From NCBI GenBank assembly GCA_019459285.1, contig JAIBEL010000072.1, forward strand, positions 1 to 64,000: a DNA stretch of 64,000 nt, read 5' to 3'. The position numbers were made by a program, and so were the translations under genes. The notes under the pieces were generated by a model. The model saw nothing but the letters and a program-made list of their open reading frames with translations. It searched no databases and was not told the DNA's origin. The stretch is from Rhizobium sp. (GTDB taxonomy: Bacteria; Pseudomonadota; Gammaproteobacteria; Burkholderiales; Thiobacillaceae). Positions 7,315-54,239 of the stretch are shown here, piece after piece (within the stretch, counting starts at the first letter, position 1; every line of letters starts with the position of its first letter).

Positions 7315-8035
7315 CGAGGCGCCAGCGCGTCGCCGCTTGCGCGATGTGCTGGCGGATTGCGCCGACCGGCTGCCGGTCGATATCGTCGGTGAGGCCGATA
7401 ACGGGCTGGATGCGCTGAACCAGGTCCAGCAGCAGCCGGTCGACGCGGTATTGCTCGACATCCGCATGCCCGGCATGGACGGCCTGGAATGCGCGGCCCA
7501 CCTCAATACACTGGACAAACCGCCGGCCGTCATCTTCAGTACGGCCTACGAAGCCTATGCCTGCCAGGCGTTCGATCTCAATGCGGTCGACTACTTGTTG
7601 AAACCGGTGCGTGCCGACCGTCTCCTCCGCGCCCTGTCACGGGCACATAGCTTGAGCGACAGCGTGCTGGAACGCTTGCGGGCTGCGCACCCCAAGGCGC
7701 GCACGCATCTTTCGGTCAATGAAAAGGGTCGCATGGTGCTGATCCCCGTCGCGGACATCCTCTACCTCAAGGCGGAACTCAAGTACGTCACCGTGCGCAC
7801 GGCCGCCCGCGAATTCCTGCTCGAGGAATCGCTTACCCGCCTGGAGAGCGAATGGGGCGACACCTTCCTGCGCATCCACCGCAACTGCCTGGTTGCGCGC
7901 GCGCGCATTCGGGAAATCGGCAAGCTGCCTGGCGAAGATGACGGCCACTTCCTGCGTCTGGACGGGTTGGACGAACGACTGATGGTCAGTCGGCGACAGT
8001 ATTCCACGTTGCGCGAGACCTTCAAATCCGCCTGA
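7271..8035 (+). CDS. algR: AlgR-like LytTR response regulator
   Basis: 254 residues from a GTG start inside the kinase gene. A receiver domain (residues 8-125) has acidic pocket DD14-15, phospho-acceptor Asp63 in LLDIRMPGMDG and switch lysine in LLKPV. A LytTR DNA-binding domain follows (about 145-250), with the typical FLRIHRNCLVARARI and the VSRRQ end. It should be phosphorylated by the kinase encoded just upstream. Targets are unknown from this window. Confidence 0.93.
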   Translation: MNAPNPPLRVLIVDDEAPARRRLRDVLADCADRLPVDIVGEADNGLDALNQVQQQPVDAVLLDIRMPGMDGLECAAHLNTLDKPPAVIFSTAYEAYACQAFDLNAVDYLLKPVRADRLLRALSRAHSLSDSVLERLRAAHPKARTHLSVNEKGRMVLIPVADILYLKAELKYVTVRTAAREFLLEESLTRLESEWGDTFLRIHRNCLVARARIREIGKLPGEDDGHFLRLDGLDERLMVSRRQYSTLRETFKSA

Positions 8036-8979: not shown

Positions 8980-10326
8980 TTATACGCTTTCAAGCTTCTG
9001 GCGGATGTCTGGCGCAGGGTAAAACACTTTCTTACGTCTACCGTGTAGGACCTCACTCAATAATCCTAGCTCTGCTAAAGCCATGAGATCAGCGCGTGCC
9101 GTTGCGTAGGCAATTTGGTGCGAGCGCTGATGACTTTCAATTGTGAAATATTCATCTGGGCGTTTGAGTGCATGAGCAAGCAATGCAGTTTGACGATGGT
9201 TTAATTGTTTTTCGCTCGTTTGTAATGCCCTGAGTTTTGCACTTAATTGCGCCTGTTCCTGCTGTTTTTGCTGTAAATATTGGTGTAGTGCAGACAATCC
9301 TTTGAGGATGACTTCTGTCTGATGTAGAAGGAAATACGTGGTGTCTCCGGAGTCTGTTTCAGTTAGTAAGTAAGCGCGAGCATACTGCGCCGGTGCCTTC
9401 CGAAGGATGCGTGAGATGGACAGGTATTCGATTAGCCAGTATCCCTGTTTTGCCATATACCAATAAAATAACGCTCGGCCCGTGCGACCATTGCCGTCTG
9501 CAAATGGGTGGTCGTATCCCACCATAAAATGCAGCAGAATCGCACGTACGATGGGATGGATGAACGTGTTATCTGAAACCGTTGCGTTGGCAAAGTCGCA
9601 CAAGGCCTGCAGGCGTTGTGCTAACTCGCTGTGATGGGGGGGGCGATGTAGCACGAGCCTGTCGTTGTTCGGCGCCACAATTTCAATATCGTCGCTCGTG
9701 CGTAATTGGCCACAGTCTTCGGGGCGTTCCAACGTACCTTCGGTCAAAACGCGTTGCAATTCGATTACGTGGCCAGGTTCCAGCGTGTCTCTGCAAATGT
9801 CGCGGATACGTCGCATTGCCTCGAAATTATTGAAAATCATTCGCTCACTGAGCGTGCCGGGTTTGCGCCCTTCGCGCAACATAGCTTCAGCAACGCGGCG
9901 AGTCGTGGATGCCCCCTCCATCTGGCTGGAGGTAATTGATTCCTCGATTAGGCTACTGATCAAATAGCGCCCTTGATCGGCACGAAGCACGGCACTGTCC
10001 TCCCCGCCTGGAACTAAGCCGGCTCCCCGGTCAATCTCGTGTAGGTTTTTCAGCAAAGGCTCGGGAAGCGTGTAGCTGAACGCCTCTCCTTGTTTGTCAT
10101 GAAAGGGCAGCGTGTTGGCACTAACGCTACGTGCAAGGCGGAGCGCCAGCCACCAGATTTTATGATTCAGTCCTTCAGGTGGGGTGCGGTGACGCAAGTC
10201 ATCCCAATGCAAATAATGACCATTCGCCAAAGGGCCTAACTTTAGCCGGGCAAGCTGAGGTAGTGTTTCAGCACTTGCCTCTTGCATTAATTCATTAAGA
10301 GACGGAGGCGGGAGCGGAATCTTCAT
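8980..10326 (-). CDS. Fic family protein (AMPylation fold) with C-terminal winged helix
   Basis: 448 residues from the ATG at 10326; an alternative ATG at 10371 would add 15 residues. The Fic motif HPFADGNGRTGR begins at about residue 273 with the catalytic histidine. An inhibitory helix motif S-x-x-x-E-G (SSQMEG, Glu137) lies N-terminal to it, making it a self-inhibited class II Fic enzyme expected to transfer AMP from ATP to a protein. The last 70 residues form a winged helix. The base composition is clearly lower in GC than the neighbours, a sign of horizontal transfer. Two dyads sit at its promoter. Confidence 0.92.
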   Translation of the reverse strand: MKIPLPPPSLNELMQEASAETLPQLARLKLGPLANGHYLHWDDLRHRTPPEGLNHKIWWLALRLARSVSANTLPFHDKQGEAFSYTLPEPLLKNLHEIDRGAGLVPGGEDSAVLRADQGRYLISSLIEESITSSQMEGASTTRRVAEAMLREGRKPGTLSERMIFNNFEAMRRIRDICRDTLEPGHVIELQRVLTEGTLERPEDCGQLRTSDDIEIVAPNNDRLVLHRPPHHSELAQRLQALCDFANATVSDNTFIHPIVRAILLHFMVGYDHPFADGNGRTGRALFYWYMAKQGYWLIEYLSISRILRKAPAQYARAYLLTETDSGDTTYFLLHQTEVILKGLSALHQYLQQKQQEQAQLSAKLRALQTSEKQLNHRQTALLAHALKRPDEYFTIESHQRSHQIAYATARADLMALAELGLLSEVLHGRRKKVFYPAPDIRQKLESV

Positions 10327-10328
10327 TC

Positions 10329-10400
10329 GACTATCAGTTTGATGATAATTGATAGTCAAATGATAAGTCATTAACTATCAATTTGATATTGATTGATAGT
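10329..10400 (-). promoter_or_regulatory. Paired TATCA-type inverted repeats upstream of the Fic gene
   Basis: Two perfect dyads share the TATCA core. GACTATCA (10329-10336) pairs with TGATAGTC (10350-10357), and ACTATCAAT (10374-10382) pairs with ATTGATAGT (10392-10400). They lie across the possible start codons and promoter of the fic gene. Their similarity to each other suggests one dimeric protein binds both, possibly the winged-helix end of the Fic protein itself. Confidence 0.65.
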
Positions 10401-10436
10401 GTTTTGATAGGTCGCTTTCTCTTGGTGCGGGCGAGA

Positions 10437-14123
<3,687 letters not shown>

Positions 14124-52643: not shown

Positions 52644-52862
52644 GGATGAAACCGGACTTTCAGGATGCCGGATTATGGAGGATGGCGGTCGAACCGGGTA
52701 GATGGTCACTGTCCCGCGTGGCCCATTGTGGATGAATGTGTGCGCCTCGTTCAGATTTGGCACCGTTGGCCGGCCCCCGGCGTTCAGTCCAGACCGCCTG
52801 AATCAACCCTAAAGGGATTCGACCACGCCTGGTTGGGTCAGCGTCGAGCCCAGACATTCAAC

Positions 52863-52887
52863 GAAAACCCCGCCACTCGGGCGGGGT
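52863..52887 (-). terminator. Terminator of the peroxiredoxin gene
   Basis: ACCCCGCC (52867-52874) pairs with GGCGGGGT (52880-52887) around a five-base loop. On the minus strand it is followed by TTTT. It lies about 40 bases past the peroxiredoxin stop. Confidence 0.82.
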
Positions 52888-52927
52888 CTCGGGTTGGTAC
52901 AGGACCGATGAATGATCCGTGGCCAGC

Positions 52928-53644
52928 CTATTCCATCGAAGGGTTCCAGACTTTCCATACGTTCCCGACCAGATCGGGTCCCGGCTTCAAAGTCTCTTTG
53001 CCGGGTTCCCAGCCTGCGGGGGTGGCTTCCTTGCCGCCAGAGGCACGCACGAGCTGGTAGGCCTGGAACTGGCGTATCGTTTCGGCGAGCTTGCGCCCGA
53101 CTGGCGCAGTGAGCACCTCCATGGCCTGGATCACGCCGTCCGGATCGATGATGAAGCGACCGCGCATCTCGATCCCCTGGGTTTCGTCCCAGACGCCGTA
53201 CGCCCGCCCGACATTGCCTGCCTGGTCGGAAATCATGTGGTATGGCACGCCGCCCTCCACCATCTTGCTCAATTCATTGTCGTTCCACATCTTGTGGACA
53301 AAATGGCTGTCCACGCTGACCGACAGCACTTCCACGCCCAACTTCTGCAACGCACCATAATGTGCCGCGACCGCGGACACTTCTGTTGCTCAAACGAACG
53401 TGAAGTCGCCGGGGTAGAAGCAGAGCATCACCCACTTGCCAAGATAGTCTGACAACTTGACGTTGGTGAATCCACCTTGGTAATAGGCTGGCGCGGAGAA
53501 ATCAGGGGCTTTCTGCCCGACACGTGCTGTCATTTTGCTTGCCTCGTGTGTTGTGGTGGGTCCGGATTGAGGGGGGGCGTCCTGCGGAGGCGCGTCGATG
53601 ACCGAGCCCGACACCCGCGCGCATCCCTGGGGTTGTTCTTCCAT
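52928..53644 (-). CDS. AhpC-type peroxiredoxin with in-frame UGA at the catalytic Cys: probable selenoprotein
   Basis: Read through the TGA at 53390-53392, this is one 238-residue typical peroxiredoxin in a single frame. The active site reads PGDFTFV-UGA-ATE, where the family has PGDFTFVCPTE, so the UGA is exactly the peroxidatic Cys codon. Downstream [25 protein letters not shown] and [10 protein letters not shown] are intact for 150 residues. Starting at [10 protein letters not shown] (53533) would make the Sec residue 48, the usual place; the start at 53644 also has a strong ribosome site. The usual resolving Cys (EVCPAGW) is Thr (EATPAGW). It should reduce peroxides. Confidence 0.8.
53347..53392 (-). 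promoter_or_regulatory. Candidate bacterial SECIS element directly after the UGA
   Basis: In the mRNA the UGA is followed by GCAAC, which pairs with GUUGC 43 bases on. Inside lies GUG-U-CCGC-GGUC-GCGG-CAC: a three-pair stem, a bulged U, four pairs and the apical loop GGUC. The loop begins 18 bases after the UGA. The E. coli fdhF SECIS that binds SelB also has a bulged U and a GGUC loop about 19 bases after its UGA. Confidence 0.75.
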
Positions 53645-53891
53645 GCTGCTTCCTTTCGTCTGGGCGGGAATATGCCTCTTTGATCTATAGGCTTCGTGCG
53701 GACTCGCGTCAAGCTCGTTTCCGAGAGAGGCGAGGCCAGACTCGCATCAGACTCGCCAGAACAACATCAAATCGCTCGCCTGTCGATGGAGGCGGGTGGC
53801 CACGAAGAACTGCGGACCGCCGCCGGACATTGCAGTACCATGGCATCGCGATATTGCATCATTATCAAGCCGGCTACCGAGAGGGTAAGGA

Positions 53892-54239
53892 ATGCTGCTG
53901 TGGATCATCGGCTTCAGCCTTCTGGGCAGCGTCGGCGCGGTCGCCAGCGCGGCGCTGATGCTGCTTTTTCCCGATGGCATCCGCAGAACGCTCGTTCCCT
54001 GTCTCGTCAGCTATGCAACCGGCACGCTGCTGGGCGCTGCATTTCTGGGCATGATTCCGGCTGGCCTGGAGCAAGCGCCGGCGGCCCCGGTCATGGCAAT
54101 GGTGCTGGCCGGCATGGTGCTGTTTTTCGTACTGGAAAAATGGGTGCTCTGGCGGCACTGCCACGACAGCGAATGCGAGGTGCACGGATGTGCTGGTCCG
54201 CTGATCCTGAGCCTGCCGATTCGAAATTCACGCGCGTAA
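53892..54239 (+). pseudogene. Truncated ZIP-family metal transporter
   Basis: 115 residues. The N-terminal half of a ZIP zinc/iron transporter is clear: three membrane segments with LVPCLVSYATGTLLGAAFLGMIP and VLEKWVLWRHCHDSECEVHG. The frame then breaks off after AGPLIL with an unrelated end (SLPIRNSRA). The metal-binding segments that should follow (HNFVDG type) are absent, and the next gene begins 33 bases on. A deletion has removed about half the gene. Confidence 0.8.

Follow-up and report, generated by a model that had tools for sequence, protein, structure and literature searches.

On its minus strand, the window (the whole 64,000-nucleotide stretch of DNA analysed here) carries prxU, a gene for a predicted selenocysteine (Sec) peroxiredoxin that spans positions 52928 to 53644 and comprises 238 codons and a stop codon (ATG at 53644..53642, stop codon at 52928-52930). 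The frame has a sole interruption, a UGA at codon 85 (53392..53390), where it terminates under the standard code. A preliminary description had placed a selenocysteine peroxiredoxin at 53347..53644, which is the right gene but covers its first part only, as prxU extends to 52928. The start ATG is favoured by the N-terminus held in common with a related locus (L024), and by eye AAGGAAG lies a few bases 5' of it. A scan of 52700-54000 returned no promoter-like sites and two terminator-like sites, each on the strand opposite prxU (shuffles gave 1.1), and a search of 53300-53900 for inverted repeats gave no pairs at seed 9.

The UGA occupies the position of the peroxidatic residue, aligning with the peroxidatic Cys of AhpC (1we0). 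As had been described from the letters, the minus strand reads PGDFTFV-UGA-ATE (the reverse complement of 53390-53392 gives the UGA), and the frame stays open 3' of it for 153 residues (150 in the preliminary description), giving 238 in all. Read through the UGA, the protein matched the NCBIfam family NF040737 (peroxi_PrxU) at 388.2 bits (cut-off 270), and the alignment was near full length (PrxU residues 6-236 on positions 2-232 of the 233-position profile). Pfam matches were to AhpC-TSA, Redoxin and 1-cysPrx_C, and the match to NCBIfam TIGR03137 (AhpC) fell below its cut-off (195.7 vs 272 bits). The AlphaFold model had a mean pLDDT of 69.4 (28 sequences in the alignment), and its PDB neighbours in Foldseek were Prx3, Prx2, plant PrxA, AhpC and other proteins of the Prx1/AhpC type, showing an AhpC/Prx1 fold. 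We saw no difference that would exclude the protein from NF040737; prxU is thus a well-supported further member of the already curated PrxU family, and no new phenomenon.

Conservation of the UGA among PrxU relatives

The window's sequence was compared with 81 relatives from other assemblies, comprising 80 relatives plus a further locus found in a different genome of the window's class (82 sequences in all). The 80 were kept from 123 found in a contig scan with two-sequence alignment that used the peptide patterns HFVHKMW and M[EA]EQPQGC. By record title they belong to Pseudomonadota, Chloroflexota, Acidobacteriota and Actinomycetota, with one Spirochaetota bin and one sequence of no assignment; two loci (L024 and L062) may represent one species. 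The nearest relative was a Thiobacillus bin with 96% identity. TGA stood at the codon-85 position in all 82 sequences, and the UGA can therefore be put down neither to a sequencing error nor to a recent mutation; this recurrence across assemblies also serves in place of the resequencing of 53390-53392 that the preliminary description had named as a check. Its remark that a random TGC-to-TGA mutation would hardly be accompanied by such a hairpin is borne out by this conservation and by the covarying stem described below.

Among 369 sampled genomes of the window's class, PrxU exceeded the cut-off in two (the window's own included), each with one TGA, and no Cys form of PrxU was found over the cut-off in these 369 genomes or in eight carrier genomes. 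One locus (L090) had an extra stop inside its PrxU match. Two weaker matches to the profile were also recorded. A second match in the genome of locus L080 (G395:C178:3305-3898; 160 bits, below the cut-off) contains one TGA and is perhaps another Sec peroxiredoxin, and a weak match in the window's genome (G000:C69:18448-18867) has one TAA inside it and may be just the profile overrunning a gene end.

The hairpin downstream of the UGA

A SECIS-like hairpin lies at 53362..53380 (minus strand), starting nine bases 3' of the UGA, with the sequence GUG-U-CCGC-GGUC-GCGG-CAC. Its lower stem is GUG/CAC, its upper stem CCGC/GCGG, and its GGUC loop (53372..53369) begins 17 nt 3' of the UGA. The preliminary description had reported this hairpin with the same loop at about 18 bases and with a bulged U (53377) below the upper stem. 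The hairpin and its loop stand, and the bulge depends on the length folded. In the 20-nt fold alone the U is bulged (-10.6 kcal/mol, vs -7.6 kcal/mol with a C bulge), and in the lowest-energy fold of a 45-nt stretch (-15.4) the upper stem and loop are kept while the U is paired and a C is bulged opposite. The upper stem and GGUC loop are therefore firm, and a bulged U in the window's hairpin is likely. The hairpin region had no Rfam match at gathering score; a lone match beside it, to an unrelated family, was at chance level (9.3 bits vs a gathering score of 43).

The fdhF-type SECIS of Escherichia coli is a hairpin right after the UGA with a bulged U below the upper stem and a GGU-type loop. 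The prxU hairpin resembles it in its position after the UGA and its GGU-type loop; a bulged U below the upper stem is favoured by the 20-nt hairpin and disfavoured by the 45-nt fold. Most non-proteobacterial prxU hairpins differ from the fdhF type in having this U paired within an unbroken stem. A small apical loop containing guanosine has been given as a feature of bacterial SECIS elements in the relevant section of an earlier survey (PMC1088965).

Across the 82 sequences, the GGUC loop was identical throughout and three of the four upper-stem pairs were invariant. The fourth pair varied (G-C in 64, C-G in 12, A-U in 5 and U-A in 1) and was paired in every sequence. Both of its bases are third codon positions, one in the codon of residue 90 (Ser in 81 of 82) and the other in that of residue 93 (Ala in 82 of 82), so its changes are silent. 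Codons 91 and 92 were GCG GTC in all 82. Excess synonymous conservation in prxU peaked in the eight-codon windows whose first codon lies within 84-91 (0.31 to 0.41), with 0.26 as the next value and a median of 0.073 over 206 windows.

We examined a seven-pair stem in 82 sequences (78 distinct rows) against 500 shuffles. Paired cells made up 91.0% (84.6% in shuffles), cells with a double change numbered 34 (7.0 in shuffles) and covariation was 0.186 (0.062 in shuffles), and for each of these measures none of the 500 shuffles was as high. Two measures were weaker, with 88 of 500 shuffles as high for pairs with a double change and 19 of 500 for pair types. Sliding the partner strand reduced both pairing (to 27-77%) and covariation at every slide. 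The bulged register, taken over all phyla, was 65.8% paired with a covariation of 0.105 and was beaten by some slides (66.8% paired at slide -3, covariation 0.134 at slide +3) since the proteobacterial clade is the main group in which its lower pairs form. What lies directly 3' of the UGA is thus a covarying stem with an invariant GGUC loop; a chance hairpin was considered and rejected on the invariant loop, the covariation and the peak of synonymous conservation.

The lower stem takes two forms. Using the label proteobacterial as assigned from record titles (16 of the 82 sequences), pair counts favoured the bulged form in 14 of 16 proteobacterial sequences and the unbroken form in 65 of 66 others, the exceptions being L060, L120 and L117. 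All three unbroken lower pairs were present in 53 of the 66 non-proteobacterial sequences and in none of the 16. Of the 16 proteobacterial rows, 13 formed all three lower pairs whether the U or the C was bulged, and for 14 the 20-nt hairpin had the lower energy with the bulged U. The bulged U proposed as a hallmark of the element therefore fits the proteobacterial clade, where it has a rival register, and does not extend to most other PrxU stems, which are unbroken.

The protein tree united 15 of the 16 proteobacterial rows in one clade (support 100/97, from a bootstrap not quite converged). Stem form tracks this clade, and the form therefore follows the gene lineage. The outlier, L120, fell among Chloroflexota, and its stem form is likewise theirs; this bin, titled Proteobacteria, may be mis-binned or hold a transferred PrxU. 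Residue 94 is Ala in 15 of the 16 proteobacterial sequences and Asp in 61 of the 66 others, and by this comparison it appears to have changed together with the stem form; a single change may explain the bulged and unbroken stems. As a single gene family with two hairpin forms, PrxU lends itself to a natural comparison of SelB recognition.

Selenocysteine genes and the surroundings of prxU

The genome (3.38 Mb in 74 contigs, estimated 100% complete) encodes a full set of Sec genes. The preliminary description had made its reading depend on selA, selB, selC and selD, above all on selB and selC, and all four are present: selA (580.7 bits), selD (434.2 bits) and selB (484.9 bits) exceeded their curated cut-offs, and selC, the tRNA-Sec, did so at 74.5 bits and was called by ARAGORN as tRNA-SeC with anticodon tca. 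A second tRNA-Sec match over the gathering score (contig C36, 47.7 bits) was discarded, as ARAGORN identified it as tRNA-Ser.

Contig C5 carries, in transcription order, genes of formate dehydrogenase-N, fdhE, selA, about 1.1 kb with no family match, selB and selC. The fdnG of this cluster has one in-frame UGA at the active-site position (ARV-U-HGP; L138, G000:C5:59000-64500, minus strand), which gives the genome at least one likely selenoprotein gene besides prxU. The selA-selB gap of about 1.1 kb corresponds to L053:9797-10881, where an ORF (9758-10948, minus strand) had no NCBIfam match, and the gap is of similar size in L055 and L059. An integrase-domain gene (L053:6340-7596, minus strand) adjoins the tRNA-Sec (7731-7827), as is common where an element has inserted at selC.

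We searched for selB (cut-off 242.25 bits) in the genomes behind 40 of the 80 loci, and 35 of these 40 carrier genomes had it over the cut-off. The five others were counted against the Sec reading. Two of them had partial selB matches at or near a contig end (G373 with 241.7 bits, G382 with 235.3 and 208.3 bits), and the best matches in the remaining genomes were 195.9 bits (G371), 131.9 bits (G384) and 82.3 bits (G378).

Neighbouring genes were scanned over up to 6 kb on each side of prxU, with less available at many loci, and selB matches of less than 30% identity and 250 residues were removed. Within this range, 6 of 81 loci, each with a proteobacterial title, had prxU next to sel genes and on their strand. 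In five (L055, L058, L059, L067 and L068) it lies 5' of selA, with selB and selC beyond where the contig extends that far, and in L060 it lies just 3' of selA, selB and selC. In these six loci prxU is placed as if it were part of a sel cassette. The window's own genome has prxU on contig C37 and selA, selB and selC on C5, an arrangement counted against the Sec reading.

Resolution of oxidised selenium and competing explanations

PrxU shares its fold and active site with AhpC (1we0, TIGR03137). It is unlike AhpC in having a predicted Sec in place of the peroxidatic Cys, a Thr at the resolving Cys, and, ahead of the domain, a tail of some 40 residues that carries Cys8. The Thr208 codon (53021..53023, minus strand) aligns with the Cys of EVCPA in 1we0, and at this canonical resolving site the 82 sequences had Thr in 72, Met in 9, Ala in 1 and Cys in none, so PrxU lacks the arrangement of a typical 2-Cys peroxiredoxin. 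With the canonical resolving Cys absent, a selenenic acid formed on PrxU would therefore be resolved otherwise than in AhpC, and the missing residue makes the catalytic cycle of PrxU a testable question.

Two other cysteines are retained. Cys75 (codon 53420..53422, minus strand) lies ten residues before the Sec, in a predicted strand (71-77), and is Cys in 82 of 82. Cys8 (codon 53621..53623, minus strand) lies in the N-terminal tail and may be a resolving thiol; an early Cys occurs in 82 of 82, a conservation that is partly by construction since the search pattern M[EA]EQPQGC includes it. At 13 of the 80 loci the match begins as late as residue 6, 7 or 8, and the early Cys is present all the same. 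Residues 1-36 of the AlphaFold model have pLDDT below 50, and Cys8 is not placeable in it.

The PrxU family match, the model's Prx1/AhpC-type neighbours, the sel genes, the UGA-containing fdnG, the UGA in 82 of 82 sequences, the covarying hairpin, selB in most carrier genomes searched and the six loci with prxU next to sel genes together uphold the selenocysteine peroxiredoxin reading first proposed; on the other side, besides the points already named, stand the negative Rfam search, a bulged U confined to part of the family and the two weaker shuffle measures of the stem. We infer from sequence comparison that prxU almost certainly encodes a Sec-containing peroxiredoxin of the AhpC/Prx1 type, with the UGA decoded via SelB and the hairpin in the cell and the selenenic acid resolved by another thiol. 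SelB would bring Sec-tRNA to the codon-85 UGA, guided by the hairpin, and decoding would yield a 238-residue protein where termination would leave a stub of 84 residues. The selenol of residue 85 would then reduce hydrogen peroxide or organic hydroperoxides and become a selenenic acid, which may be resolved by an internal thiol (Cys8 or Cys75) or by an external one, e.g. thioredoxin.

The closest competitor accepts a true selenoprotein and differs on the last step only: PrxU would use external thiols alone (a 1-Sec type), and Cys8 and Cys75 would be kept for a tail disulfide or for structure. We give it an even chance, as the lack of Cys at the canonical site in all 82 sequences, the 1-cysPrx_C domain match and the unplaced Cys8 tail agree with it, whereas the retention of two Cys in all 82, one of them in a conserved tail, suits a resolving role. 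A UGA read as an ordinary amino acid (tryptophan or cysteine), or leaky termination there, is compatible with the sequence alone; it is very improbable given the full Sec machinery in the genome, the catalytic position of the UGA, a SECIS-like hairpin under selection, selB in most of the carrier genomes searched and the loci with prxU beside sel genes. Least credible of all is a decayed or misread AhpC gene in which a Cys codon became TGA by mutation or sequencing error, leaving a truncated, non-functional product, since the standard-code stop and the Cys of AhpC at that site are outweighed by the same UGA recurring across assemblies and phyla, a conserved protein 3' of it and a covarying hairpin.

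Building on the Sec-containing peroxiredoxin, we can sketch a more specific and rather doubtful scenario. Sec would be obligate in PrxU, which would have a new layout: Cys8 in a flexible N-terminal tail would stand in for the lost canonical resolving Cys through a Sec85-Cys8 selenylsulfide. The gene would travel with the sel locus in Proteobacteria, and its SECIS would have gone from unbroken to bulged as an adaptation to SelB of that group, residue 94 (Ala in the clade and mostly Asp outside it) altering in step with the RNA.

Sec peroxiredoxins, other Prx selenoproteins and the curated PrxU family are already known. COG0450 is the AhpC group. Among the selenoproteins of the Sargasso Sea survey, the part of the report on peroxiredoxins gives 43 Prx (COG1225) and 22 Prx-like (COG0450) (PMC1088965); the latter are peroxiredoxin-like as PrxU is and, likened by description, may be the same family. 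The Sec peroxiredoxin of Eubacterium acidaminophilum (Soehling 2001) is cited in passages of PMC13188914, PMC9312934 and PMC8533274. It and the bacterial Prx selenoproteins of the TxxU type have in common with the window's predicted selenoprotein (T82-F-V-U85) a Sec at the peroxidatic site. In review tables this group is filed under PF00578 (PMC13188914) or COG1225 Bcp (PMC9312934), and the labels of those tables set it apart from the AhpC/Prx1-like PrxU. Excerpts of the cited selenoprotein papers gave no description of two stem forms, a lost resolving Cys or a sel neighbourhood of prxU, and in a literature search by title and abstract, with subscription papers largely outside its reach, none among the papers listed dealt with this gene or with two SECIS forms in PrxU. 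According to the portion of a 2006 survey that covers them, Betaproteobacteria had one selenoprotein family, formate dehydrogenase (PMC1794560), and prxU adds a likely second selenoprotein for a Thiobacillus-like lineage. Standard gene callers would split such UGA-containing genes in two. Upstream of prxU, on the plus strand at 53892-54239 of the window, a 115-residue membrane-like ORF resembles, by eye, a shortened ZIP-type metal transporter.
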